A stretch of 38,032 bases of DNA from Nitrospinota bacterium (lineage in GTDB: Bacteria > Nitrospinota_A > UBA7883 > JACRGQ01): assembly GCA_016217735.1 (NCBI GenBank), contig JACRGQ010000049.1, forward strand, positions 1-38,032, read 5' to 3'. Positions 107 to 14,405 of the stretch are shown in pieces. A program made the translations under genes and the position numbers. The notes beneath the pieces were generated by a model. The model was not told the DNA's origin and searched no databases. It saw only the letters and a program-made list of their open reading frames with translations. Each line of letters starts with the position of its first letter. The first letter of the stretch is position 1.

Positions 107-1855
107 TTGAATAATAATCCACATCTCCTGTATGGCATTCAGGGGCTTGCGGCCCGTTTCAACTTTCCGCTGGTTAATTCGCATACCGGCATTGTTATCG
201 GCAGCGGCAGGTTGTGCCTGATTGATCTGAAGCGCGGCGGCGGTGGTTTTTATCTTAACGTTTTGGCTGACGTGCCGCTTGAAGGGCAGAACCCGTTTTC
301 CCCCGATGTCTCGCGGCTGCTGACCCGCCTCGCCCGGGAAAACAGCCTGCATGGGCGGACCGCCGCCATTCTCGCCGCTGGCCGCGGCTTGCGGGTGCGG
401 ATTCTGGAGATGCCCCGCATGGAACAGGGCGAACTGGTGGCATCACTTCGTTTTACCGAGGCCGAGGCGTTACCGTATCCGATGGAGACCGCGGCGCTGG
501 ACGGCTGCATTCTGCCGGGTGGCGCGGAAGGCCGGATGCCGGTGCTGATGGCGGCGCTGGAGTGCGCCGAGGCGGACCGCCACCATCAGATGCTCTCCCG
601 TTCGCCGTTTCGGCCAATCGCCCTCACGGTGGTTCCGGCGGCGCTCGATGCGCTGCTGGAGCACTCCCGTATTATCGATACGAGCGTCCCGGTTTCTTTC
701 ATCAGTATATCGGGGGCGCATATCGGGGTTTATATTTTTGAAGGAGGCGGCATACGGTTTACCCGCGATATCGGTTTTGGCGGCGATGGTTTTACCGATG
801 CGCTGACGGGGGCGTATGAGGCGGAAGGGGGGGGAATCGCCGTTTCCCGCGAAGAGGCGGAAACGCTTGTCGCGTTCTTCGGGATACCACGCGGTGATAG
901 TCTCGGCGCACACGGACCCAGGGGGATTTCGGGAGAAACGGTTTTAGCCCGTTTGCAGCCGGCGCTGGATAAGATGGTGACGGAGTTGGGCCGGTCGCTC
1001 GACTATTACCGCAATGAATACCAGCATTCCTCCGTGCCGCCGGCCTACCTCATCGGCTCCGCCGTCCGGATAAAGAACCTTGCCGAATATCTTACCGATG
1101 CGCTTGGCTGCCGGTTCTCGGTCTACAACCCGTTCGGCGATTTTATCGCGGCGGAGGGGCCGGGCCTGGCGGCGGCGCGGGATAACGGAGCCGCTTGCGC
1201 CGTGGCGGTGGGGGTGGCGCTGGATCAGGGGCGGCGGATCAATCTCCTGCCGGAAAAAAAGCGATGGTCGCCGCGGAATTGGCTGCGTGCGCGGCTTCCG
1301 GCGGCGGCGGCGGCGTGTTATTGCCTGCTGGTATTGGGTGCCGGCTTGGCGGGTACCGCATACCGTAAGAGCCTGGATGCGCAAATCGCCGAGGTGGAGG
1401 GGAAAATTGCCGTTCTCAAGCGGGCGCATGACGCCGGCGCCGTCATCGAAGCGAAAATGGCCGACATCCGCGGGGAGATCGGGGCAATTGACGCCCGCAA
1501 GGCGGCATACCCGGAACTGGAAGGGCGCGGCATCGGCTGGAAGGAACTGTATGGGGAAGTGGGGAGGCTGATGCCGGACGATATGGCGCTGGATCGCCTC
1601 ATTTTCCGCTTTGGCAACACGAAGGAGTATGCGGCCGATGGCGTCATGTATGGCAGGCAAGCGTTGTTTGAAGGGCGCGTCCGGGGCGGGGCGGGCGGGC
1701 AAGTGAAAACCCTGGAGCAGTTTTTGGAAAAAATGCGGGACTCCGCGTTTTTTACCCACGCCACACTCATAAGCTCCCGCGAGGTGGCGGCGGATGGCGG
1801 CAACGCCTATCTGAAGTTCACGCTGGCGGCGGACATCCGGCGGGAACAGCTATGA
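107..1855 (+). CDS. pilM: PilM-PilN fusion (GspL/MshI-like pilus assembly protein)
   Basis: This is an inner-membrane component of a type IV pilus or MSHA-like alignment complex. Residues 28-370 form an actin-like PilM domain: a GIVIGSGR phosphate-binding-like segment near residues 28-35 and an AEALPYP segment typical of PilM/GspL. Residues 378-382 read INLLP, the short motif by which PilN normally docks onto PilM. It is followed by one membrane helix (about 398-418), a coiled coil and a PilN-like periplasmic domain. PilM and PilN, usually separate, are therefore joined in one 582-residue chain, as in GspL. The start is TTG; no other start codon precedes the conserved glycine segment and no clear Shine-Dalgarno site is visible. 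The stop overlaps the next gene as ATGA. Family is clear; pilus versus secretion role is not. Confidence 0.8.
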   Translation: MNNNPHLLYGIQGLAARFNFPLVNSHTGIVIGSGRLCLIDLKRGGGGFYLNVLADVPLEGQNPFSPDVSRLLTRLARENSLHGRTAAILAAGRGLRVRILEMPRMEQGELVASLRFTEAEALPYPMETAALDGCILPGGAEGRMPVLMAALECAEADRHHQMLSRSPFRPIALTVVPAALDALLEHSRIIDTSVPVSFISISGAHIGVYIFEGGGIRFTRDIGFGGDGFTDALTGAYEAEGGGIAVSREEAETLVAFFGIPRGDSLGAHGPRGISGETVLARLQPALDKMVTELGRSLDYYRNEYQHSSVPPAYLIGSAVRIKNLAEYLTDALGCRFSVYNPFGDFIAAEGPGLAAARDNGAACAVAVGVALDQGRRINLLPEKKRWSPRNWLRARLPAAAAACYCLLVLGAGLAGTAYRKSLDAQIAEVEGKIAVLKRAHDAGAVIEAKMADIRGEIGAIDARKAAYPELEGRGIGWKELYGEVGRLMPDDMALDRLIFRFGNTKEYAADGVMYGRQALFEGRVRGGAGGQVKTLEQFLEKMRDSAFFTHATLISSREVAADGGNAYLKFTLAADIRREQL

Positions 1856-2571
1856 AAGATTCCCTGCTCCATTATTGGAAACGGTTTTCGCGGCGTGAAA
1901 AATTCCTCTGCGCCGCCGCGGCGGGCGTTTTGCTGCTGTATGCCAGCTATGCGCTCGTGCTGGAAAACTCCGTGCGGGATGCACTGAATAAGGATGCCCG
2001 TCTCGCGCGGCTCAACGCCGAATACCAGAGCATACGGGCCGGCAGCCGGCGGCTTGAAGAGCTTAAGGGGAGCTTGGCCGGCCTCGGTTTGGAACTGGAG
2101 AAAAAGCGGGAGGAGGGGCGGCTGCTTGCCGAAGGCTTACAATCACGCCGCCCCGCTGAAACCTTGTTGCACGAGCTGCGTCAAGCGGCCGGCGCAATCC
2201 CCCTGCAACTGGTGGGGATGGACATAAAGACCGGGGTGATTTCCAAAAGCAGGGAATTCGCCGTGGAACGCGCAACGGGGGCCGCGCCGGGGGAGCCTCT
2301 CCATGTCGGCGCAATGCGGACCGTCAAGGTGGATTACACGGTAAGCAAGATTGTCCTCTCCTATCGATCCACCTACCATGGCGCCGTTAACTATTTTCTG
2401 AAAGTAATGGATTTACCCTATGCCATTTCGGTGAATACCGTGGAGATGGAGCGGAGCAATATGGCCGGAATAGCCGTTGGCGGCCCGAAACGGCATATCG
2501 CCGGGGGCGGCGTTTCGGAAGGGGAATTGCCGCTGAATACCAAATTGGGGATTGAGATTTTCTACCGGTAA
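1852..2571 (+). CDS. pilO: PilO-like pilus assembly protein
   Basis: This bitopic inner-membrane protein has a short cytoplasmic N-terminus rich in Lys and Arg and one membrane helix at about residues 18-37. A coiled coil (about 40-105) and a C-terminal ferredoxin-like periplasmic domain follow, the layout of PilO/MshJ/GspM. The segment around YHGAVNYFLKVMDLP matches the place where PilO proteins carry their helix for dimer formation with PilN. It overlaps the PilM-PilN gene by four bases and ends three bases before the PilP-like gene, so it is translated as part of the same unit. Sequence conservation in this family is low; the call rests on topology, size (239 residues) and position. Confidence 0.7.
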   Translation: MKDSLLHYWKRFSRREKFLCAAAAGVLLLYASYALVLENSVRDALNKDARLARLNAEYQSIRAGSRRLEELKGSLAGLGLELEKKREEGRLLAEGLQSRRPAETLLHELRQAAGAIPLQLVGMDIKTGVISKSREFAVERATGAAPGEPLHVGAMRTVKVDYTVSKIVLSYRSTYHGAVNYFLKVMDLPYAISVNTVEMERSNMAGIAVGGPKRHIAGGGVSEGELPLNTKLGIEIFYR

Positions 2572-2574
2572 GTT

Positions 2575-2907
2575 ATGAAAAAGGCAATCTTAGGACTTTT
2601 ATTACTGTCGTTGCTGGCGGATGCCGTGTTTGGTACGGAACTTGAATCATCCAAGTCACGCAACCCCTTCGATTTCGGCGGGGGAAGCGGCGACAAAGGG
2701 ACTTTTGGGAACAAGCCGGTATCACGTTTGGGTATGGTCGTGGACGCGGGCGGCAAGCATGTCGCCTACATCGATGGTATCCCCCATAAGGTGGGGGATG
2801 TGGTTGATGGAGCGCGGATTATGGACATTACACTGAAATATGTGGTGCTGGTTTCCCCGCAAAAGACTTGGAGAATGTATGTTGAACCGCTCAAGGAGAA
2901 GGAATAG
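2575..2907 (+). CDS. pilP: PilP/MshK-like periplasmic linker protein
   Basis: A 110-residue exported protein with a signal peptide (about residues 1-20) and a Pro/Gly-rich linker carrying the sequence NPF. It ends in a small beta domain of the PilP/GspC homology-region type: a GMVVDAGGKHVAYIDG strand pair, then a VGDVVDGARI loop and the terminal strands. In type IV pili PilP connects the PilN/PilO dimer to the secretin, which fits its place between the PilO-like gene and the secretin gene. The last 29 bases overlap the secretin gene. There is no lipobox Cys, unlike many PilP proteins; it could equally be called MshK. Confidence 0.65.
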   Translation: MKKAILGLLLLSLLADAVFGTELESSKSRNPFDFGGGSGDKGTFGNKPVSRLGMVVDAGGKHVAYIDGIPHKVGDVVDGARIMDITLKYVVLVSPQKTWRMYVEPLKEKE

Positions 2908-4612
2908 CCCGGCGTATCACGCGCTGCTATTGTCGTTCTTCTTTGCGGTTTCGTCTTGCGCTACCCCTCCGGCCAAAAAAATTGTAGTTGAACCAGCAAA
3001 AAATGACGTAACTTTTCTTCCGTCACAGCCGCAAACGGCAGCCGCTCCCTCAATTCCGCCGGCGGGCGCCATACAAAGCTCCCATGGGGATGATTCGGCC
3101 AAGCCGTACCTGTTGCAACTGCGTGATGAAGAGCGCGGCGGCTCGGAAAACCGCCAGCGGCGGGAAAACCTCTTTTCGTTTCATTTCAAGGAAACCAGCC
3201 TTGAGTCGGTTGTTAACATGTTGAGCGACCGGGGGCGCAACTTTCGCTATGTGATACACCCCGATGTCGGATCGCGTAAAGTATTGGGGCTTTACCTGGA
3301 GGACGTTACGTGGCGCGAGGCGCTTGCCACCGTCGCCCGGCTGCACAATTTGATTATCACCGAGGAGCACAACCTGGTGGTGGTCAATACCTACGAGAAT
3401 TACATGGCGGCGCAAGAACAGGACGTTAAGCGCGTCCGCTTATCGCAGGATCGCGCTGAAATGGAGCGTTCCATCCTGGCGGCGTCGCTTAAGTCCAAAC
3501 AACTCCAGGCGGACGACCGGCGCACATTCCGTTCGTTTAAACTGAAATACGCCGAACCGAACGAGGCGAAAGCCTATCTGGACCGGATTTTCAGCGGCCC
3601 CGGTGAAATGCCGTCATCCGATGCTTCCGCCGAAAAGGGCGCCGCGGCCCCGGCGCAGTCAAGCTTCCGCATATTGTTCAGCACATTCAGCAAAGCGTCG
3701 ATTTTGACCGCGTACGGCACTCCAGCGGATATTGAGGATGTGGCGCGGCGCATCGAGGATATTGATGTTCCGCAGCAGCAGATATTCATTGAATCCCGCA
3801 TTGTCGAAGTTATGCGCAGCCACAGCCGCTCGCTTGGCGTTCAGTGGGGCGGGCTCGCGGCGCGCACCACTGGCAGCGTATTTCCCGCCACTGTCGGCCT
3901 TGCCGGCAGCGCGCAGGTGGGAAGCACGGCGCTGGTGCCCAACGGGCTTGCCGCCACGCCGGGGGGCGCGCTCTCAAACGGTTATGCGATGGGAACATCG
4001 AACGGCATGGTGGATCTGCCGGCCACTGATCCCTCCAATTCCGGCGCGTTACCCGCCGCGGTAAGCATCGCGTTGAGTGACGTCGCCGGCACTTCGTCCC
4101 TCAATCTGCGCTTCAGCGCGCTGGAGCGCGACGGCAAGGGAAAAACTTTGAGCAACCCGAAAATCGTTACCATCAACGGCGTGCGGGCAAAGATCGCCAG
4201 TGGCCGTGAAATCCCGTATCAGCAGTCGGCCGGCGGCTCGTCGGGGGCGACCACCGTGGCATTTAGAAACGCCGTCATCTCGCTGGAAGTCACCCCGTTT
4301 GTTACGCCAGACAACAGAATTTCGCTCAAAATCGCCGCCCATAAGGACGACGCTGATTTTACGAACCCCGTTCAAAACGTTCCCTCGATACTCACCCGTT
4401 CGGTGGAGACCAGCGTTGTGGTGACGGATGGCGGCACCGCCGTGTTGGGAGGCGTATTCGAGAATCTGCAGACAGGCACCGAACGCGGGGTGCCGTTCCT
4501 TTCAAAAATACCGGTCATTGGCTGGCTTTTCAAGGGAAGCGAGGATCTCGATAACGAGAAGGAGCTGCTTATTTTCATTACGCCGCGCATTGTAAGGGGC
4601 AATTTCACATGA
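2879..4612 (+). CDS. pilQ: PilQ/MshL-type secretin lipoprotein
   Basis: This is the outer-membrane secretin channel for pilus or pseudopilus passage. The ATG at 2879 is chosen because GGAG lies five bases upstream and the product then begins with a signal peptide ending in a lipobox (VSSC, lipidated Cys27). An STN/N0-N1 region spans about residues 98-172, followed by a secretin N-domain (about 213-290). The C-terminal half is the beta-barrel domain, with the hallmark segments TLSNPKIVTINGVRA and GVPFLSKIPVIGWLF and the ending ELLIFITPRIV. At 577 residues it resembles MshL more than long PilQ proteins. The lipid anchor may let it reach the outer membrane without a pilotin. Its stop overlaps the next small ORF as ATGA. 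Confidence 0.9.
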   Translation: MLNRSRRRNSPAYHALLLSFFFAVSSCATPPAKKIVVEPAKNDVTFLPSQPQTAAAPSIPPAGAIQSSHGDDSAKPYLLQLRDEERGGSENRQRRENLFSFHFKETSLESVVNMLSDRGRNFRYVIHPDVGSRKVLGLYLEDVTWREALATVARLHNLIITEEHNLVVVNTYENYMAAQEQDVKRVRLSQDRAEMERSILAASLKSKQLQADDRRTFRSFKLKYAEPNEAKAYLDRIFSGPGEMPSSDASAEKGAAAPAQSSFRILFSTFSKASILTAYGTPADIEDVARRIEDIDVPQQQIFIESRIVEVMRSHSRSLGVQWGGLAARTTGSVFPATVGLAGSAQVGSTALVPNGLAATPGGALSNGYAMGTSNGMVDLPATDPSNSGALPAAVSIALSDVAGTSSLNLRFSALERDGKGKTLSNPKIVTINGVRAKIASGREIPYQQSAGGSSGATTVAFRNAVISLEVTPFVTPDNRISLKIAAHKDDADFTNPVQNVPSILTRSVETSVVVTDGGTAVLGGVFENLQTGTERGVPFLSKIPVIGWLFKGSEDLDNEKELLIFITPRIVRGNFT

Positions 4613-6140: not shown

Positions 6141-6882
6141 AAACGACGCGCCGCAGCGCCCGGCGGCGGAAGCCGCGCGGAGCGCCGGAGAGGGGTCGCC
6201 ATTTTCCATGCCGTTGGAAAAAGGGATGGATATTTTGGCGGAGCCGGCCGCAAAGAAAACGGCGGGGGAAGAAGGGCCAAAACATGAAGTAAAGCGCGCG
6301 CCGCAAGAGGCCGCGCCGCCCGCCAAAACGGCGCACACGGCGGACGTGCGGTGCCACGGCCCCCGTCTCTGGAGGCTGTTGCTGGCGATGTTCCTCTTTC
6401 CCTTTTTCTTCAATCTCGGTTCGGAGCTTTATTTGCTGGCTCGCACCGCCATTATGGCGCACATGGGCGGCTTGCAGACCGCCGCGCCGCCGCCTGCCCA
6501 GCCATCACCGGGCAAGAGCGATGCCGACAAGATGATAGACAGCCTCGCGGTGGTGATCGCCAATCAGGAAAAATTGTTGCGCGATGCCGGTCAATCGGAT
6601 GCCGGCCGGGTGGTAATCATACATCCCGATTATGCCGGAACCTTTTCGTATGACGCCGAAAAAGGCAAGGTAAAAGAGCTGGCCGGCATTGATTTGGACG
6701 ACCCCTTGGCGGGTTCAGACAAGTTCGGCAAGATAAAATCCGCCGAGGTCTTAAGCGCCGTCATCGGATCATTCGACCGGATATTACTCAACGCGGCTCA
6801 GAACAATGTTTCCGAATTCAGGGTAAAAAATACCCTGGAAGCAAAAAAACAGGCGCTCAGACGGTTGCAAGAACTCCGCTAA
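6130..6882 (+). CDS. Uncharacterised single-pass membrane protein
   Basis: I do not recognise this 250-residue protein. It has a long Ala/Pro/Lys-rich cytoplasmic N-terminus (about 1-78), a Phe-rich membrane segment (about 80-108), a short proline linker and a mixed alpha/beta domain (about 125-250) carrying VVIIHPDYAGTF and ending in a Lys-rich helix. The topology recalls GspB/TonB-like energy or peptidoglycan-linking proteins of secretin systems, but I see no OmpA-type or PDZ signature. It starts inside the end of the FlgO-like gene and is the last gene of the pilus operon. Confidence 0.55.
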   Translation: MADKNDAPQRPAAEAARSAGEGSPFSMPLEKGMDILAEPAAKKTAGEEGPKHEVKRAPQEAAPPAKTAHTADVRCHGPRLWRLLLAMFLFPFFFNLGSELYLLARTAIMAHMGGLQTAAPPPAQPSPGKSDADKMIDSLAVVIANQEKLLRDAGQSDAGRVVIIHPDYAGTFSYDAEKGKVKELAGIDLDDPLAGSDKFGKIKSAEVLSAVIGSFDRILLNAAQNNVSEFRVKNTLEAKKQALRRLQELR

Positions 6883-6943
6883 TGGGAAGTGTTACGTAAA
6901 ATCAATAGGTTGTATATCGCTGATGCGCCAAGGGGGGCGCGGT

Positions 6944-6976
6944 GTAACCTTTCCGCAACTCATGCGTCTAAATGGG
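6944..6976 (+). promoter_or_regulatory. Candidate ECF-sigma promoter of the secreted peptide gene
   Basis: GTAACC at 6944-6949 (extended by TTT) and CGTCT at 6965-6969, separated by 15 bp, match the usual ECF pattern of an AAC-containing -35 and a CGTC -10. Transcription would start near 6976, leaving a leader of about 42 nt that holds the AGGAGG ribosome site at 7003-7008. The same two blocks occur at 7344-7370 ahead of the Spy/sigma operon. I found no convincing sigma70 boxes here. Confidence 0.55.
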
Positions 6977-7018
6977 CAATAGTCAGAACCTATTAACAAT
7001 TTAGGAGGATACTTGAAC

Positions 7019-7225
7019 ATGAACACTTTCTCTAAAGCTCTCGTTGCCTTGATGGTTGTCTCGATGGTTGTTACCAGCGGCACCGCGTTCGCCGGCGAAA
7101 CGAAACACAAGAAGCACGAAGCCAAGGCTGAAGAAAAGGCCGCGGCTCCGAAGGAAGAAAAGAAGGCTGAAGAAGCGAAGCCCGCAGCGGCCCCGGCAGC
7201 GGCCCCCGCAGCAAAAGGTAAATAA
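7019..7225 (+). CDS. Small secreted Lys/Ala/Glu/Pro-rich protein (Asr-like composition)
   Basis: This 68-residue precursor has a clear signal peptide cleaved after AFA at about residue 25. The mature part of about 43 residues is built almost only of Lys, Ala, Glu and Pro, with two His near its start (KHKKHEAK) and alternating Ala/Pro at its end. Its composition and size recall the acid-shock protein Asr of enteric bacteria, a periplasmic intrinsically disordered protein, but homology cannot be claimed. The ATG at 7019 is preferred; a TTG two codons upstream is closer to the AGGAGG at 7003-7008. A strong terminator directly follows, so the gene is monocistronic and probably well expressed. It shares a promoter motif with the sigma-factor operon. 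Confidence 0.75.
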   Translation: MNTFSKALVALMVVSMVVTSGTAFAGETKHKKHEAKAEEKAAAPKEEKKAEEAKPAAAPAAAPAAKGK

Positions 7226-7250
7226 GCTCCCGCTTATTTCGCAATCAAAA

Positions 7251-7307
7251 GCGGACGTCCCTTCACGTGCCCGGATGGGCACGTGGGGGCGTCCGCCTTA
7301 TTTTTTT
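7251..7307 (+). terminator. Strong rho-independent terminator
   Basis: The outer stem GCGGAC (7251-7256) pairs with GTCCGC (7291-7296). The perfect inner stem CACGTGCCC (7264-7272) pairs with GGGCACGTG (7277-7285) around a GGAT loop. Seven T residues lie at 7301-7307. It ends the transcript of the small secreted protein and insulates the following sigma operon, which therefore needs its own promoter. Confidence 0.9.
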
Positions 7308-7343
7308 GTTTCCGATAATTCCCTATTTGATATTTCTTCGCGC

Positions 7344-7377
7344 GTAACCTTTAATACTGCTTATACGTCTTTCTTGA
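7344..7377 (+). promoter_or_regulatory. Candidate ECF-sigma promoter of the Spy/sigma operon
   Basis: GTAACC at 7344-7349 (extended by TTT) and CGTCT at 7366-7370 are separated by 16 bp, the classic ECF spacing. Transcription would start near 7377, just ahead of the AAAGGGA ribosome site and the ATG at 7393. The same blocks stand before the small secreted protein gene (6944-6969). Because the operon downstream encodes an ECF sigma factor, this is most simply an autoregulated promoter. Confidence 0.6.
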
Positions 7378-7392
7378 AAGGGATAAAGCATT

Positions 7393-7878
7393 ATGCGGCG
7401 GATTGTTGTTGCTCTTTTTTTAACCGGTTTCGCGCTGACGGCAATGGATGGTTGGGGGCGGAGTGCCGCATGGGCCGAAGGGGGAGCCGCCACGGTTAAA
7501 CCGATGGCGGGAGACCGCCGCAAAGAGCCGACGGCCGCGTTATTTTTTAGCGGCCGGCTTGGACGTATTGGTCTTAGCAAGGAGCAGAAGGAGAAGATAC
7601 GCGCCATATTCGTGGCGCATGAAGGGGCGTTGGCGGGCGCCAGCGCGCGGTATATTGAAAAGCGCCGCCAGATGCGGACGCTGATTGACGATCCCGGCGC
7701 CACCGAAGAGGCCATCGCCGGCGTAGGCGAGGACATCGGCCAGATCGAGGGCGAACTCGCTATAGAGCGGAACAGGGTATTGAAGGAAGTGATGAGTCAG
7801 CTGACGCCAGAGCAGGCGGCAAAATTTAAAAAAGGGCGTTTGGCGGGCCAAAGACAGGAAAGCGGACAACCCCGGTAG
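7393..7878 (+). CDS. Periplasmic Spy/CpxP-like (LTXXQ) protein
   Basis: A 161-residue exported protein whose signal peptide ends near residue 28 (AAWA). The mature chain is helical and charged and carries two LTXXQ-family motifs, LSKEQ at 61-65 and LTPEQ at 137-141, as in Spy, CpxP and ZraP. These periplasmic proteins act as chaperones or stress/metal sensors. It is the first gene of a four-gene operon with an ECF sigma factor, an anti-sigma candidate and a second, membrane-anchored LTXXQ protein, so it is probably a stress-induced effector or feedback inhibitor. A good ribosome site (AAAGGGA) precedes the ATG. Confidence 0.8.
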   Translation: MRRIVVALFLTGFALTAMDGWGRSAAWAEGGAATVKPMAGDRRKEPTAALFFSGRLGRIGLSKEQKEKIRAIFVAHEGALAGASARYIEKRRQMRTLIDDPGATEEAIAGVGEDIGQIEGELAIERNRVLKEVMSQLTPEQAAKFKKGRLAGQRQESGQPR

Positions 7879-7903
7879 TGCGGCGGATAGCGGGGGTATA
7901 GAA

Positions 7904-8467
7904 ATGGATTCCGCTGGCGCGGGTATCCCGGATGAGCGGCTGGTTGACCAGGTCCGCGCGGGGGATGGCGTGGCGTATGAAGAGCTGATCCGCCGGCACA
8001 AAGGGAAGATTTTTGGCATGGCGGCACGGATTGCCCGTGATGCCTTGGAGCTTGAGGAAATTGCCCAAGAGGTCTTTGTAAAGGCCTACGAGAACCTGGC
8101 AAGCTATCGGGGCGATGCGCCGTTCGGGCACTGGTTGTCGCGCATCGCCACCAATACCTGCCACGATTATTTGCGCAAGCGGAAACAGCGCCGGGCGGAA
8201 GTATCCGTTGACCTGTATGAGTGGATGTTGGAGGCTCCGGCGGAAACGCACGGAGCCGCGCCGGAGGAACTGGCGGCATTGGCGCGCGCGCTGGAGCGGC
8301 TGCGTCCCGGCGAGCGGCTGGTGTTGACGCTTTTGGAGTTGGAAGAGAAAAGCGTGAAGGAAACGGCGTATATTATGGATATAAGCGAAGGGAACGTAAA
8401 AGTACGCGCCCATCGCGCCCGTAAAGCGCTTAAAGAACTGCTGGAAAAGGAGTTGAAACATGGATGA
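7904..8467 (+). CDS. ECF-family RNA polymerase sigma factor
   Basis: This 187-residue group 4 (ECF) sigma factor recruits RNA polymerase to its own promoter class. Region 2 lies at about residues 24-93: the DALELEEIAQEVFVKAYENL core-binding segment, then FGHWLSRIATNTCHDYLRKRK, which melts and reads the -10. Region 4 lies at about 125-180, ending in a helix-turn-helix (VKETAYIMDISEGNVKVRAHRAR) that reads the -35. The linker between them is short and there is no region 3. Its gene overlaps the anti-sigma candidate by eight bases, the usual coupling for this pair. Likely targets are the two GTAACCTTT...CGTCT promoters at 6944 and 7344. Confidence 0.92.
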   Translation: MDSAGAGIPDERLVDQVRAGDGVAYEELIRRHKGKIFGMAARIARDALELEEIAQEVFVKAYENLASYRGDAPFGHWLSRIATNTCHDYLRKRKQRRAEVSVDLYEWMLEAPAETHGAAPEELAALARALERLRPGERLVLTLLELEEKSVKETAYIMDISEGNVKVRAHRARKALKELLEKELKHG

Positions 8468-8756
8468 CGCAAAACTGGATCGCCTGTTATTGGCGTTGCG
8501 CGAACGGGCGGTGGATACCACGCGCATCGAGCACGGTTTTGAAACGAGGATGATGGCGGCTTTGCGTCAGCGCCAAGCCGGGGAGCCGGCGGTGTTTTTC
8601 ATGGCGTGGAAGCTTGCTCCCATGTTTTTAGCGTTGCTGTTGGCGGTGGGGGGATGGGTGTATACCGTCGCCGGCCCGCAGGGGGGCGTTCATATCGCCG
8701 CCATCGGCGCGGGACATGAAGAGGTGCAGATGGTTCGTTATATGACGGGCGACTGA
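8460..8756 (+). CDS. Putative small membrane anti-sigma factor
   Basis: A 98-residue protein with a charged cytoplasmic N-terminus (about 1-47), one membrane helix (about 48-71) and a short periplasmic tail. It has no HxxxCxxC zinc motif, so it is not a ZAS-type anti-sigma factor. Its size and topology match CnrY-type anti-sigma factors, which bind sigma through a short N-terminal helix. Assignment rests on the overlap with the sigma gene, a strong AAGGAG ribosome site, and the Spy/CnrX-like gene two bases downstream. The sequence alone would not identify it. Confidence 0.65.
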   Translation: MDDAKLDRLLLALRERAVDTTRIEHGFETRMMAALRQRQAGEPAVFFMAWKLAPMFLALLLAVGGWVYTVAGPQGGVHIAAIGAGHEEVQMVRYMTGD

Positions 8757-8758
8757 CA

Positions 8759-9166
8759 GTGAATGCAAAGTTGAAAGGAATCACCGGGGTATTGGTGATT
8801 TTCCTTGTCGGCGCCGCCACGGGATGGATCGGCGCGCGCCATTGGTATAAAGAGCGGTTGGAAGGCCTGATGCGGGGGAATCCCGATGCGTTTCATGAAG
8901 TCATCGTGCGCCGATTGAACAAAAAGCTGAATCTCAGCCCCGCCCAGGTGGACACGCTGCGCGAAATATTAAACCAGTCGCACGAAGAAGTTACCGCCGC
9001 GCGCGAAGAACTCTCCCCGGAGATTCAGGAAATACTCGAAGAGACCAGGAGCCGCGTGGAAGCGATTTTGACACCGGCGCAGGCCTATGTGTTTAGGCAT
9101 CTGACGGAAAAGGAACATACCGCCAACCAGATGGCAACCACTCCCCCCGCCGCGCCGGGCAGGTAG
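8759..9166 (+). CDS. Membrane-anchored Spy/CnrX-like periplasmic sensor
   Basis: A 135-residue protein with an uncleaved N-terminal membrane anchor (about residues 8-26, Gly/Ala-rich). The periplasmic helical hairpin carries LTXXQ-type motifs at both ends: LSPAQ at 59-63 and LTPAQ at 104-108. CnrX and ZraP share this fold, and CnrX with CnrY and CnrH forms a metal-sensing complex controlling an ECF sigma factor. His residues at 28, 46, 75, 114 and 120 could bind metal but are not diagnostic. The start is GTG, two bases after the stop of the anti-sigma candidate. It most likely senses the envelope signal that releases the sigma factor. Confidence 0.7.
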   Translation: MNAKLKGITGVLVIFLVGAATGWIGARHWYKERLEGLMRGNPDAFHEVIVRRLNKKLNLSPAQVDTLREILNQSHEEVTAAREELSPEIQEILEETRSRVEAILTPAQAYVFRHLTEKEHTANQMATTPPAAPGR

Positions 9167-9247
9167 GCCCCACATTCTTCGGGTTATCTTGCTTTGTTGG
9201 AATAGGGGATACTTTCCCTTATCGGCGCACCCCCGCCGGAGCGCATT
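9167..9247. other. Convergent gap between the sigma operon and the hox operon
   Basis: An 81-bp gap between converging stops. An 8-bp hairpin with a five-base loop lies at 9202-9222 but has no T run on either side, so it is at best a weak or rho-assisted terminator. Nothing else is evident. Confidence 0.3.
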
Positions 9248-9748
9248 TTAACTTATTCTTTTCCCCTGCCCGAGCAATTCCAGAATAAACAGGAAGGCGG
9301 CATCAAGGTTTTCCTTTGCCCGTTCCGATATACCCTCGCCGAATCCTTCATACTCATAACCGCGGATGCCGAGGATATACCCTTTTGTTTTGGCGCCGAA
9401 CATCGTCCTCGCGAAAAACATCGCCGCCTCCGGCGAAAGGCTATGACTGTTGAATGTTGGTTGCGTGGCCGCGATGGGTATCTCGGTAAACGAGAACGGG
9501 GCTTGGCCGCTTATGGCCGCATCGGCAAAAATGACATAATCGTGCCGGGCTATTTCATGCGCATGGTCCACAACCAGTTGGTAATCCGTTTCGACGGACA
9601 CCCCTTTGAGGGCGCGCGCGTCAAGCAGGGCCGACAAGGCCGGACCAAGGCCGTCATCGATACGGCCAGGATTGCCGTAGCCGATCACCAGGACTGTTCC
9701 GGAAGTTAAATCAAATATACTGGCTGTTCCGGTCGACAAGGTTTCCAT
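9248..9748 (-). CDS. hoxW: HoxW-type [NiFe]-hydrogenase maturation endopeptidase
   Basis: An M52-family protease of about 166 residues. It removes the C-terminal extension of the large subunit HoxH after nickel insertion. The signature GYGNPGRIDDGLGP follows shortly after the N-terminus, and its Asp is the usual nickel-sensing ligand. Further conserved sites are the FADAAI acidic residue and the His in SHSLSPEA. The start is uncertain: ATG codons at 9766, 9757 and 9748 and a TTG at 9739 are all in frame and none has a clear ribosome site. All overlap the end of hoxH, so translation is probably coupled. It is the last gene of the hox operon. Confidence 0.85.
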   Translation of the reverse strand: METLSTGTASIFDLTSGTVLVIGYGNPGRIDDGLGPALSALLDARALKGVSVETDYQLVVDHAHEIARHDYVIFADAAISGQAPFSFTEIPIAATQPTFNSHSLSPEAAMFFARTMFGAKTKGYILGIRGYEYEGFGEGISERAKENLDAAFLFILELLGQGKRIS

Positions 9749-11150
9749 CCGCGTCATACATTTCAATCGCCAGCGGCATTTTCCCTATCGCATGCGTTGC
9801 GCAGGAAAGGCAGGGGTCATAGGCCCGAACCGCAACTTCCACGTGGTTTAGCATCCCTTCCGTTATTTTCGGTTTTCCCGAAATATGATCCTGGGCGACT
9901 TGTTTAACGGCGCGGTTCATGGCCTCGTTGTTGTTGGTGGTGGAAACGATCAGATTGCAAAAGGTAACCTGGTCGTTCGCATCAACCTTGTAATGGTGGA
10001 ACAGTGTGCCGCGCGGCGCTTCAATCACGCCGATTCCCTCTCCCGCGCGTTCCCCTTTGACCATCAGGTCCGTTCCCTGCAGGTCGGGGTCATTAAGCAA
10101 TGTTTCGATGTTCTCCACGCAATGCAGCGTCTCTATCATCCGGGCCCAATGATAGGCAAGCGACATATGGTTTGGCGCGCCGCGGGTAAGGTTTTTGAAT
10201 TCGACAAGGGCCTTGCCCGCCTCCGGGGTATCGATAAACCCGCACGTGTTCATGCGGGCCAACGGGCCCACGCGGTACCATCCGTCAATATGTCCGCGGG
10301 ATTTGATAAATGGGAATTTCATATACGACCACGGCTTTACCTCCTCCATAAGATACTCGTTAAAGCGGCGGTAATCGACTTGGTCGAAAATAAGGTTTCC
10401 CCCGGCATCCAGGGCCCGCAGGTTTCCATGATAAAGGTCCAGCGCGCCATCCTCGCGCACGAGGGAAAGGTGGCTGGAATTGAAAACCGCAAACGCTTGC
10501 ACGGCCGCAAGGTTGTCAAAGGTGTATTTTTTGGCAATATCAAGCGCGCCGAGCGCCCATGTCTTCATCTGCCCTATATCGCGCAAAAAAACATCCCGTT
10601 CCGCGATGGAAAGGTTTTTGTTCACCCCGCCGGGCACGGCGCCGGTTCCATGTATTTTTTTTCCGGCGGTGGCTTTAATAATCTCCTGGCCGAATTTGCG
10701 CATCATGACGCCCTGCACGGCCAATTCCGGCATTTTTTCAATTACGCCAAAAACATTGCGCGATTCAGGATCGGAATCAAAACCGAACAGCAGGTCCGGC
10801 GAAGACAAATGAAAAAAGTGCAATACATGGCTTTGCATGATTTGACCGTAGTGCATCAACCGCCGTATTTTTTCCGCCGTTGGCGTAAGCTTCTTCGCCC
10901 CGACAATCATGTCCATCGCTTTTGACGCGGTGAGGTGGTGGCTTACCGGGCATATGCCGCACAGCCGCTGGACGATCACCGGGACTTCCCAATAAGGGCG
11001 GCCGCAAATAAACCGCTCGAATCCGCGAAATTCGACAACATGAAGCCGTGCCTCGCGCACGTTATTATGGTCGTCAAGGTGAATGGTGACTTTTCCATGC
11101 CCCTCGACACGCGTTATCGGCTCTATCTCAATAACCCGTGTTTTAGTCAT
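9711..11150 (-). CDS. hoxH: HoxH, large catalytic subunit of NAD-coupled [NiFe]-hydrogenase
   Basis: This 479-residue subunit carries the NiFe(CN)2CO active site that oxidises or produces hydrogen. Both metal-binding pairs are intact: RLCGIC (C64, C67) near the N-terminus and DPCLSC (C447, C450) near the C-terminus. The latter continues to a His453 cleavage point followed by a 26-residue peptide, the substrate of the neighbouring HoxW protease. Sequence style (EPITRVEGHGK, GRPYWEVPVIVQRLCGICPVSHH) and company with HoxF, HoxU and HoxY place it in the cytoplasmic bidirectional group 3d. An ATG with GGAG about nine bases upstream sets the start. Confidence 0.95.
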   Translation of the reverse strand: MTKTRVIEIEPITRVEGHGKVTIHLDDHNNVREARLHVVEFRGFERFICGRPYWEVPVIVQRLCGICPVSHHLTASKAMDMIVGAKKLTPTAEKIRRLMHYGQIMQSHVLHFFHLSSPDLLFGFDSDPESRNVFGVIEKMPELAVQGVMMRKFGQEIIKATAGKKIHGTGAVPGGVNKNLSIAERDVFLRDIGQMKTWALGALDIAKKYTFDNLAAVQAFAVFNSSHLSLVREDGALDLYHGNLRALDAGGNLIFDQVDYRRFNEYLMEEVKPWSYMKFPFIKSRGHIDGWYRVGPLARMNTCGFIDTPEAGKALVEFKNLTRGAPNHMSLAYHWARMIETLHCVENIETLLNDPDLQGTDLMVKGERAGEGIGVIEAPRGTLFHHYKVDANDQVTFCNLIVSTTNNNEAMNRAVKQVAQDHISGKPKITEGMLNHVEVAVRAYDPCLSCATHAIGKMPLAIEMYDADGNLVDRNSQYI

Positions 11151-11173
11151 TGCATAATCTCCAATGCCCGCAT

Positions 11174-11734
11174 CTAATCAAACTTGATTACTTCGCTGGG
11201 CAAATCCGATGGTTTTCCGTTCAAAAGGGCGTTTATCGCCTGCCACAATATGTCGCCCGAAGGCGGGCACCCCGGAATCTGGTAGTCCATTTTTACCACC
11301 TCGGCGCACGTGTATACCTTGTCGAGAATCAGCGGCAACGCGGGGTCGTTTGGAATGTCGTTCGTCGGGTTATATACATACGGACTGTTCAGGTATGCCG
11401 TTTCCAGGCATTCCCGCAGCGGGTCTTTTGAATGCATTATGGCGTTCCGCATCACCGGCAGTCCCCCCATTACGGCGCACTGACCGACGGCAACCAGCAC
11501 ATCGCAATTCCTGCGGAATTTCCGCAATGTATGGACGTTTTCCTCGTTGCAGCATCCACCCTCGATAAACCCTATATCGCATCGCGCCTTAAACCGTTTC
11601 AGGTCGTTGACGGGGCTTCTGTCGAACTCCACCAGTTTGACCAGTTCCAAAATCCGCTCGTCGATATCCAGCAGGGACATATGGCAGCCAAAACATCCCG
11701 CAAGGGATATGGTGGATATGCGCTTTTTTTTCAT
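11174..11734 (-). CDS. hoxY: HoxY, small subunit of NAD-coupled [NiFe]-hydrogenase
   Basis: This 186-residue small subunit holds the proximal [4Fe-4S] cluster that passes electrons between the HoxH active site and the HoxU clusters. Candidate ligands are C14 and C17 in GCFGC, C86 in VGQCAV and C155 in PGCPPSGD, the pattern of HoxY and of the Nqo6-like family. There is no Tat signal, so the enzyme is cytoplasmic. The start overlaps the end of hoxU as ATGA and a GGGGATC lies upstream; 23 bases separate it from hoxH. Confidence 0.93.
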   Translation of the reverse strand: MKKKRISTISLAGCFGCHMSLLDIDERILELVKLVEFDRSPVNDLKRFKARCDIGFIEGGCCNEENVHTLRKFRRNCDVLVAVGQCAVMGGLPVMRNAIMHSKDPLRECLETAYLNSPYVYNPTNDIPNDPALPLILDKVYTCAEVVKMDYQIPGCPPSGDILWQAINALLNGKPSDLPSEVIKFD

Positions 11735-12456
11735 TTTTTGATCCCCTTCGGAGTCTTTTCAATTTCCGTTCCGATGGGATGCAAGTCGAATCTGCGCTGG
11801 CCGACCGGATCATAAAATCCGCGCCGTTTCTGAATAATGCAGCCGACCGGACAGATGCCCGGGGCCACGGCATGATCGTCGATATGGACGTTGGTCTGTG
11901 CCAGGTTTTTTCCGTTCACTCCCACCTGTTTGTTAATCCCGCGCCCGATATAGCCGAACACGTTTTTGTGATCCATATGCCGCGAGGCCCTGATGCAACG
12001 GCCGCACCGTATGCACCGGTTGGTATCCAGCATGATATCCGGATGGGAAGCATCCACCGGACGCACCGGCTGTAAATAGGGGTACTTGTCGGGCTGCAAA
12101 ATCCCAAGCCGGTATCCCAGTGCCTGCAACTCGCACCGTCCGCTAGCCTCGCAGCAAGGGCACAGGTGGTTCCCTTCGTGAAACAGCATCCGGACAATAT
12201 CCCGCCGGCAGTTCCGGATTTCCAGCGTATCGTTTTCCACCTCTATGCCGGGGGCCACCGGTTGCGTGCAGGCGGCCGCGGTCCGGCCATTGATTTTCAC
12301 CGTGCATACGCGGCAGCTCCCCTGCGGTTCCAACCCTTCAACATCGCAAAGACGCGGAATATAGATGCCCGCCTCGTCGGCGGCATGCATAATTGTTTGT
12401 CCGGGTTTACCCCTGACTTCAACGCCGTCTATTTTGAAGACAATTGCATTATTCAC
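11731..12456 (-). CDS. hoxU: HoxU, iron-sulfur diaphorase subunit
   Basis: A 241-residue electron-wire subunit related to the N-terminus of NuoG. A plant-type [2Fe-2S] domain has ligands C37, C48, C51 and C63. A His-Cys [4Fe-4S] site follows with H97, C99, C102 and C108. A further site uses C148, C151 and C154 with the distant C202 in ICPVGC. All expected ligands are present. It starts with GTG after a good GGAGAAGG site, lies 21 bases after hoxF and overlaps hoxY by four bases. Confidence 0.93.
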   Translation of the reverse strand: MNNAIVFKIDGVEVRGKPGQTIMHAADEAGIYIPRLCDVEGLEPQGSCRVCTVKINGRTAAACTQPVAPGIEVENDTLEIRNCRRDIVRMLFHEGNHLCPCCEASGRCELQALGYRLGILQPDKYPYLQPVRPVDASHPDIMLDTNRCIRCGRCIRASRHMDHKNVFGYIGRGINKQVGVNGKNLAQTNVHIDDHAVAPGICPVGCIIQKRRGFYDPVGQRRFDLHPIGTEIEKTPKGIKK

Positions 12457-12477
12457 AATACCTTCTCCAGACCCTTG

Positions 12478-14322
12478 CTACCGTTCATTTTCGTTCCCGA
12501 AAACCGGATCGTAAATCATCGATTTTCGTTTTGCGATTCTTCGGGATTCTTCAAGCGCTTTCTGAATATTGAATCCCGGCTGCAAGCCGTCGGCGCTTTC
12601 CTTCAAATGCGATGAGTATACCAGCGGGAATTGCGCCATTGAGTTTAATACGCATTTCGGCGCCGAACTTCCCAGTCCGCACCGGCTGGTCATCATAATT
12701 GTTTTGCCAAGGTCTTTTAGGTAGTCCAGGTCCGCGCTTTCCGCGAATCCATGCATTACTTTCTGGATCCTCTCCCGCAGAAACACGGTTCCCACCCTGC
12801 ACGGCGTGCAATACCCGCAGCTTTCATCGGCGAAAAATTCCAGGTAATAATCAACGATAGCCAATACATTCCGGCGGGAGTTGAATATCGTAATCGCTCC
12901 GCCCGTGGGTAAATCGGAAAAGCAGATTTTCCTGTTAAAAAACCCGCGGCCTATCATCTCGCCGCTGGCGCCCCCCACTTGCACGATGACCGGGTCTTCA
13001 GCTCCCGCCATCTCAAGCAGCGCGGCGATTTCAACTCCATACGGAATCTCATATACGCCAGGTTTTGCGCAATCGCCGCTTATGCTGAGCAGTTTCGTCC
13101 CGTGGCTGGCTTTCGTTCCGATGCCGGCAAACCATGCGGAACCGCGGTCAAGTATCCGGGCCGCGCAGCAGAACGTTTCAACGTTGTTCACGATAGTCGG
13201 TTTGGCAAGGTATCCCTTTTCAACGGGGAAGGGGGGGCGGTTTTTTGGCTCGCCGCGCAACCCTTCGCACGAGCTGATAAGCGCGCTTTCTTCGCCGCAA
13301 ATATAGGCCCCCGCGCCCAATTGTATCCTGATATCGAAGTCAAATCCCTTCTTCCCGCATATTGCGGTGCCCAATAAGCCGGATTTTCGCCTCTCTTCCA
13401 TAACACTTTCAAGATAGGGGAGGAGATATGCGTATTCCGCGCGCAAATACAAAATGCCGCTATCGCTCCCAACCGCATAAGCGGCGATGGTCATGCCTTC
13501 GAATATAAGGTTTGCGCGCTCCGTTAATAGCACCCGGTCCTTAAAAGTCCCCGGCTCTCCCTCATCGGCATTGCATATTACGAACCGCCGGTTTGCTTCG
13601 GCCTTTTGGGCAAGTTTCCATTTTTCACCGGTGGGAAAGCCGGCGCCGCCCCGGCCCCGTAAACCGGATTCGGCAATTTCCTGGATGACTTCAAGCGGTG
13701 TCTTGGACAGAGCCTTTTTCAAGCCGGATTCGGCTTGAATCCCATCGGCCAAGATCACCTCGCCCTTCATCCGGATATTGTTTTTCACCATGGCGTTGAC
13801 GAGATGATTGCCGTTATTGCCGTCGCCCCTCACCGTCACAAGTTTTGACGGGTCTGAAGATGACTTTAACCGCCGGGCGATATCCCTGGCGGAATCCGGG
13901 GTTAACGAGGTTAACGCCACTTCGTTAACCAACGCGGCGGGCGCCTGGTCGCTCATTCCGATACACGCGGTGTACTCCAGCGAAAATTTCCGGTCGGGAG
14001 AGGTCTGCCCGATACCGATACCCAATTCTTCTGAAAAAACAGCGGCGATTTTATCAATCCCCGCATGGCGGTCGACTATGTCGCCGCAAAGCCGGATGAT
14101 GATTTTGCCTTTCGGGGTCTCCGAAAAAAACGAATAAAAAGATACGATTCCCTCGATGTGCACCCGGCTGGTATTAATCGTGGCGGCGATCTTTTCCATC
14201 GCATCTTCATTGATGCAACCAAGCGATTTTTGGATTTCCCACAGAATATCGATAACCCGGCCAGGATCGTTTTTATGCTTATTGCATGCTTGGGCGATCA
14301 CTGAATCAAGATTCGATTTCAT
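12478..14322 (-). CDS. hoxF: HoxF, NAD(H)- and FMN-binding diaphorase subunit with NuoE-like N-terminus
   Basis: This 614-residue subunit exchanges hydride with NAD and passes electrons to HoxU. Residues 1-160 form a NuoE-like domain that keeps C79 and C120 but has D84 and S124 where the second Cys of each pair should be, so it probably lacks the usual [2Fe-2S] cluster. The NuoF-like part is intact: RGRGGAGFPTG (222-232), the FMN site NADEGEPGTF (251-260), CGEES (342-346), and [4Fe-4S] ligands C502, C505, C508 and C548. The ATG at 14322 is preferred over an in-frame GTG at 14403 because NuoE homology begins there. It has no clear ribosome site and overlaps the stop of a small upstream ORF. 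Confidence 0.92.
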   Translation of the reverse strand: MKSNLDSVIAQACNKHKNDPGRVIDILWEIQKSLGCINEDAMEKIAATINTSRVHIEGIVSFYSFFSETPKGKIIIRLCGDIVDRHAGIDKIAAVFSEELGIGIGQTSPDRKFSLEYTACIGMSDQAPAALVNEVALTSLTPDSARDIARRLKSSSDPSKLVTVRGDGNNGNHLVNAMVKNNIRMKGEVILADGIQAESGLKKALSKTPLEVIQEIAESGLRGRGGAGFPTGEKWKLAQKAEANRRFVICNADEGEPGTFKDRVLLTERANLIFEGMTIAAYAVGSDSGILYLRAEYAYLLPYLESVMEERRKSGLLGTAICGKKGFDFDIRIQLGAGAYICGEESALISSCEGLRGEPKNRPPFPVEKGYLAKPTIVNNVETFCCAARILDRGSAWFAGIGTKASHGTKLLSISGDCAKPGVYEIPYGVEIAALLEMAGAEDPVIVQVGGASGEMIGRGFFNRKICFSDLPTGGAITIFNSRRNVLAIVDYYLEFFADESCGYCTPCRVGTVFLRERIQKVMHGFAESADLDYLKDLGKTIMMTSRCGLGSSAPKCVLNSMAQFPLVYSSHLKESADGLQPGFNIQKALEESRRIAKRKSMIYDPVFGNENER

Positions 14323-14405
14323 ATTGCCGCCAATCGGTTCGCCGTAAGCGTGCAACGTGAAAGAATATCCTTGCTGCCCTGTTGCATGTTCCAGACCCCA
14401 CACAT
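14319..14405 (-). CDS. Possible leader ORF upstream of hoxF
   Basis: A 28-codon frame in the hox leader starts with ATG at 14405 (a second ATG lies at 14387) and stops with TGA sharing ATGA with the hoxF start. The product is short, polar and unlike anything I know. A TAGGAGG stands at 14432-14426, 20 bases before the first ATG, which is farther than usual. Its value is the stop/start overlap with hoxF, which has no Shine-Dalgarno site of its own. It may be chance. Confidence 0.3.
   Translation of the reverse strand: MCGVWNMQQGSKDILSRCTLTANRLAAI

Follow-up and report, generated by a model that had tools for sequence, protein, structure and literature searches.

Does a sigma factor of the ECF type control both its own operon and a neighbouring gene for a secreted peptide from two matching promoters? 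The question is raised by a locus in the genome of an uncultured groundwater bacterium of the phylum Nitrospinota, which was analysed within a stretch of 38,032 nucleotides (the window). The original prediction had placed two matching ECF-type promoters ahead of the two transcription units, and had read the locus as a stress module that regulates itself and has the peptide as a main output. The features under discussion are the following:

6944..6969, plus strand: ECF-type promoter of the peptide gene; GTAACC (-35), 15 bp, CGTCT (-10); conserved in five relatives
7019..7225, plus strand: secreted Lys/Ala-rich peptide, 68 aa, with a likely signal peptide; open frame, ribosome-binding site, orthologues
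7251..7309, plus strand: intrinsic terminator; stem 7251-7296, then a T-rich tail
7344..7370, plus strand: ECF-type promoter of the sigma operon; GTAACC, 16 bp, CGTCT; also at orthologous operons in other phyla
7393..7878, plus strand: Spy/CpxP-like secreted protein (Metal_resist, LTXXQ); PF13801, E 2.3e-8
7904..8467, plus strand: ECF sigma factor; Sigma70_r2 and Sigma70_r4_2
8460..8756, plus strand: putative one-helix anti-sigma factor, 98 aa, directly after sigma; relatives at 80/82 loci
8759..9166, plus strand: membrane-anchored Spy/Metal_resist-type periplasmic partner, 135 aa; relatives at 79/82 loci

Two ECF-type promoter sites

Both predicted sites are present with their exact sequences, GTAACCTTTCCGCAACTCATGCGTCT at 6944-6969 and GTAACCTTTAATACTGCTTATACGTCT at 7344-7370, and the spacers after GTAACC are 15 and 16 bp long, as had been stated. 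Their common form is GTAACCTTT-N12/13-CGTCT. The occurrence of the pair is far above chance expectation: GTAACC-N15/16-CGTCT has two matches in the window versus 0.02 expected, and none of 100 shuffled sequences contained two. Only the boxes match between the two sites, and both the spacers and the flanks differ. The combination of an AAC-type -35 box with a CGT-type -10 box, ahead of the sigma factor's own operon, agrees with the definition of ECF-type promoters (PMC8103513). The predicted gene order of secreted peptide, Metal_resist/LTXXQ protein, ECF sigma factor, unrecognised small one-helix protein and second Metal_resist-like protein is likewise found, and the sigma gene starts 534 bp downstream of the second motif (540 bp had been given).

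A search for sigma-70 promoters returned a single weak match in the region 6800-9400, which lies on the opposite strand and is not above chance, and no RNA family or riboswitch of Rfam matched anywhere in the window. The predicted start of the operon transcript, near 7377, would fall at the ribosome-binding site (AAAGGGA; window 7371-7393), about 16 nt before the ATG at 7393. This ribosome-binding site is conserved in congeners, and the predicted operon leader is unusually short.

The peptide gene, the terminator and the operon proteins

Each of the five relatives with the sigma factor also encodes an orthologue of the peptide. Translation most likely starts at the ATG at 7019, since the TTG at 7013 does not stay in frame in every relative. 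The mature peptide of about 43 residues contains 11 Lys, 8 Glu and 15 Ala, plus a conserved HKKH-like stretch. It resembles the Asr acid-shock protein only in its charged, Ala/Lys-rich composition, and no Asr match was obtained in Pfam at E values up to 1. A second, weaker match to the peptide is present in another genome (G005:C97:14360-14551; 39% identity, E 2.8e-4), which is perhaps a paralogue or reflects mere similarity of composition. The strong terminator that had been proposed between the two units is borne out by a stem energy of -41.8 kcal/mol and a z score of -7.2, and the pairing is kept in three congeners, with four pairs changed on both sides in a compensatory manner.

The first protein of the operon exceeds the cut-off for PF07813 in addition to PF13801, and its profile matches the structures of CpxP (E 1.9e-13) and Spy. 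The sigma factor (187 aa) consists of regions 2 and 4 only (Sigma70_r2 at residues 28-94, Sigma70_r4_2 at 124-176), and its nearest solved relatives are Pseudomonas sigma-H, E. coli sigma-E and SigW. The 98-aa protein has one likely membrane helix and no family match in Pfam or NCBIfam; its position, topology and co-occurrence with the sigma factor suggest an anti-sigma role. The anchored partner has a weak Metal_resist match in Pfam and a profile match to Spy (E 8.8e-8), but not to CnrX. Its AlphaFold model comprises an N-terminal helix and three further helices (pTM 0.42), and a Foldseek search with this model gave no significant match, CnrX included. The Spy-type assignment is therefore based on the sequence profiles.

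The operon converges with a [NiFe] hydrogenase cluster with NADH-dehydrogenase-like subunits on the minus strand (window 9248-14403), and at two related loci (L015, L016) a hydrogenase-type subunit gene, NuoE/HoxE-like by sequence, also follows the operon. Any connection with nickel that this neighbourhood might suggest is no more than a thought. Upstream of the peptide gene, on the plus strand, are genes for type IV pilus assembly (PilM-like, secretin; window 107-4612).

Conservation in the family and motif counts

Close orthologues of the sigma factor are encoded in three congeners and also occur in two further genera of the same family. The three congeners have kept both promoters with the same two spacings, while the letters of the spacers and the sequence upstream have changed. 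At locus L017 the Spy-like first gene is absent and the sigma gene comes immediately after the second motif; at locus L018 the peptide promoter alone is present, and no second motif of this form was visible before the operon.

Pattern searches over the 2.53 Mb genome showed that GTAACCTT-N10-15-CGTC occurs only at the two window sites. The form GTAAC-N16/17-CGTCT has additional matches only in 13 copies of one repeat (GTAACACCTCCTG...), most of them near contig ends, and none of the efflux genes of this genome has a GTAACC motif. Apart from this repeat, the genome scan suggested with the original prediction returns the two sites only. The identical repeat, GTAACACCTCCTGCCCGAACATCGTCT, is found at 13 places in genome G000 (for example, C1:29-55 and C15:13527-13553) and probably represents a mobile element that caused the breaks in the assembly.

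A search of 24 Nitrospinota genomes with the strict motif yielded 15 matches, 11 of which belong to this locus in the six genomes with a close sigma orthologue; the reversed pattern, used as a control on the same genomes, yielded zero. Two of the remaining four are located ahead of other ECF sigma genes (loci L237 and L238 in genomes G015 and G016, with the form GTAACCTTT-N-CGTCT), and two, both in genome G008, are without an evident gene. Because of the former two matches, the promoter form must be regarded as common to more than one ECF clade, and not as exclusive to the clade of this sigma factor.

A second ECF system in the same genome

The genome contains a second operon with a Spy-like protein, an ECF sigma factor and a putative anti-sigma factor, the promoter of which has the form TGAACTTTT-N-CGTC. 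TGAACCTTT (or CGAACCTTT) also occurs in promoters ahead of RND efflux adaptor genes and of a TolC-like gene, the latter with CGAACC, and the same is true in relatives. The TGAAC(C)TTT-N-CGTC promoters of the second system are located at G000:C7:22046, C25:15304, C30:5926 and C40 (locus L230), and at loci L020 and L232 in relatives. When the looser pattern AACCTT-N13/14-CGTC was searched, the intergenic matches were members of this second promoter family, with TG/CGAACCTTT; the matches inside genes look like chance.

These promoters raise the possibility of a larger regulon, in which the window's sigma factor would also read the TGAACCTTT-N-CGTC promoters of the RND adaptor genes, of the TolC-like gene and of the second Spy-ECF operon, and the locus would be one branch of a broader envelope-stress network. 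The two promoter sets have the -10 box and AACCTTT in common, and such promoters stand ahead of envelope genes in this genome as well as in congeners. However, the second ECF sigma factor has a TGAAC promoter of its own, and genome G001 contains the second system but lacks a close orthologue of the window's sigma factor. Moreover, the -35 box of the second system, TGAACC, differs from GTAACC in two bases, and all 11 locus motifs in the six genomes carry GT. We therefore regard the larger regulon as unlikely. The simplest reading is that the two ECF systems are told apart by GT or TG in the -35 box, although some cross-recognition may occur.

The module in other phyla

A genome search with a profile of the sigma factor revealed loci in Nitrospinota, Verrucomicrobiota, Thermodesulfobacteriota (Geobacterales), Myxococcota, Nitrospirota and Omnitrophota. 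Among 82 sampled sigma loci from these six phyla, relatives of the 98-aa protein were present in 80 and relatives of the anchored partner in 79. The counts are for these two proteins only, as iterating the profile of the first Spy-like protein drifted into the anchored partner. Outside Nitrospinota, GTAAC-N15-18-CGTC was found within 1.1 kb upstream of the sigma gene at 37 of 75 loci, compared with one on the reverse strand and a mean of 0.4 after shuffling; the other 38 loci have no such motif within this distance. The spacing is 17 at 30 of 38 motif sites, and a T comes next, also at 30 of 38. The predicted conservation of the motif at orthologous operons is thus seen in the genus, in the family and across phyla.

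At loci with the promoter well ahead of the sigma gene, the first gene after the promoter commonly encodes a small secreted protein that is Spy-like or rich in Lys, Glu and Ala; the non-Spy proteins that were tested have no Pfam family match. The strict motif has exactly two matches in one genome of the Geobacterales, where one precedes the operon and the other a Spy gene further downstream. In a second genome of this order the same pair is seen at the locus, along with two matches at other places, and a third genome has a match ahead of another Spy gene. The Geobacterales pairs therefore repeat the layout of the window, a regulator promoter plus a promoter for a secreted output, with a different output. 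The literature that was searched contains no description of the module in Verrucomicrobiota or Geobacter.

It could be argued that both promoters are read by another ECF sigma factor of the cell and that the local one reads other sites, as at least two more ECF-like genes are present in the genome and unrelated ECF sigma genes have this motif ahead of them in the two Nitrospinota genomes mentioned above. Nevertheless, the motif follows the locus of the window's sigma factor across phyla and is restricted to that locus in the genus, and autoregulation is the usual arrangement (PMC8103513), which makes this explanation very improbable. A distance of only 400 bp between the copies might suggest that they arose by chance or by a recent duplication at the locus and do not act as promoters. 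This can be dismissed, as conservation is limited to the boxes, spacers and flanks vary between species, and the same boxes recur in other phyla.

The proposed circuit

The reading that we prefer is an autoregulated ECF sigma circuit with a near-private regulon of two adjacent transcription units and the peptide as an output. Judged from sequence comparisons, its probability is about 85%; the circuit is very likely real, as several distant phyla show this promoter signature next to the same module of genes. The comparisons show the sites, how well they are conserved and how nearly unique they are in the genome, together with the terminator, the gene families and the joint occurrence of the module's genes. 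We infer that the sigma factor reads both sites and that the one-helix protein acts as its anti-sigma factor, and likewise the nature of the signal and what the peptide and the Spy-like proteins do.

In the unstressed cell, the one-helix protein (8460-8756) would hold the sigma factor (7904-8467) at the membrane, probably aided by the anchored Spy/Metal_resist-type partner (8759-9166); this holding role of the 98-aa and 135-aa proteins is proposed because of the analogy with CnrYXH and SigAb-AabA-AabB. An envelope signal, possibly a metal or a misfolded periplasmic protein, would free the sigma factor, and RNA polymerase with this sigma factor would then start at 7344-7370, leading to more of the system and of the Spy/CpxP-like periplasmic protein, and at 6944-6969, leading to the 68-aa secreted basic peptide. 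The terminator would insulate the two units, so that the peptide output could be set separately.

The original proposal of a stress module that regulates itself and has the peptide among its outputs remains the best reading of the sequence, and the genome scan and the cross-phylum conservation agree with it. That the peptide is the main output is supported only in part, since the Spy/CpxP-like protein encoded by the first operon gene would be an equally direct one, and the place of the peptide is taken in other phyla by Spy-like proteins or by different small secreted ones. More tentatively, and with rather less than even odds, the locus might represent a cross-phylum module of sigma factor, one-helix anti-sigma factor and anchored Spy-like protein, the regulon of which is essentially private to its own locus and which has a fast-changing output slot for small secreted helical or charged proteins, filled in this Nitrospinota family by an undescribed Lys/Ala-rich peptide. 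On this reading the peptide is possibly a disordered chaperone or a binder of metal or polyanions, and it might in addition act back on the sensor.

As far as the searched literature shows, the peptide family, the near-private regulon in Nitrospinota and the breadth of the module are new. For an ECF module present in six phyla or more, the analysis provides a testable promoter code together with a list of targets. It also gives an example of a sigma factor whose action seems confined to its own locus, and it points to small secreted peptides of a new family as a likely direct target of the sigma factor. Two sigma systems in one genome, with GTAACC versus TGAACC, would also be useful for the study of insulated promoters.

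Comparison with known systems

Both proteins that flank the sigma and one-helix genes in the operon match the Spy/CpxP family of periplasmic chaperones by profile. E. coli Spy and CpxP are under the control of the Cpx/Bae two-component systems, whereas here an ECF sigma factor would take this role, and the second copy is membrane-anchored.

The CnrYXH system of the cobalt-nickel response in Cupriavidus metallidurans (PMC9045368) is similar in that an ECF sigma factor is combined with a membrane-bound complex of a small protein and a periplasmic protein of the metal-resistance type, and in that the sigma factor has two promoters: CnrH drives cnrYp for the regulators and cnrCp for the output. 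The gene order is different, the output of CnrYXH is an efflux pump instead of a secreted peptide and a Spy-like protein, and CnrH is only a distant match to the window's sigma factor (E 1e-12).

SigAb-AabA-AabB of Acinetobacter (PMC12153292) likewise unites a sigma factor, a small transmembrane protein and a periplasmic protein in one autoregulated operon, and there the small anti-sigma factor and its periplasmic partner restrain a sigma factor with a tiny direct regulon. The promoter is also of the SigX-like type with a T run in the spacer. However, SigAb has the boxes GTCAAC and CGTT, apart from its own operon it directly controls relA and a small RNA, and no secreted peptide has been reported for it (PMC12153292).

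SigF-NrsF of Caulobacter crescentus (PMC3511200) shares the GTAACC -35 box, the 16-bp spacer and the small regulon; it is linked to heavy-metal stress, and a metal is a possible signal here as well. In contrast, the -10 box of SigF is CGAA and not CGTCT, and NrsF has six transmembrane helices, compared with one in the putative anti-sigma factor; the window's system thus stands outside the Caulobacter SigF group with GTAACC-N16-CGAA and a multi-helix NrsF. About 55% of ECF sigma factors are autoregulated according to a review (PMC8103513). Because autoregulated ECF operons are this common and GTAACC-type promoters are known from Caulobacter SigF (PMC3511200), the sigma factor, the promoter and the architecture described here are of a known kind.
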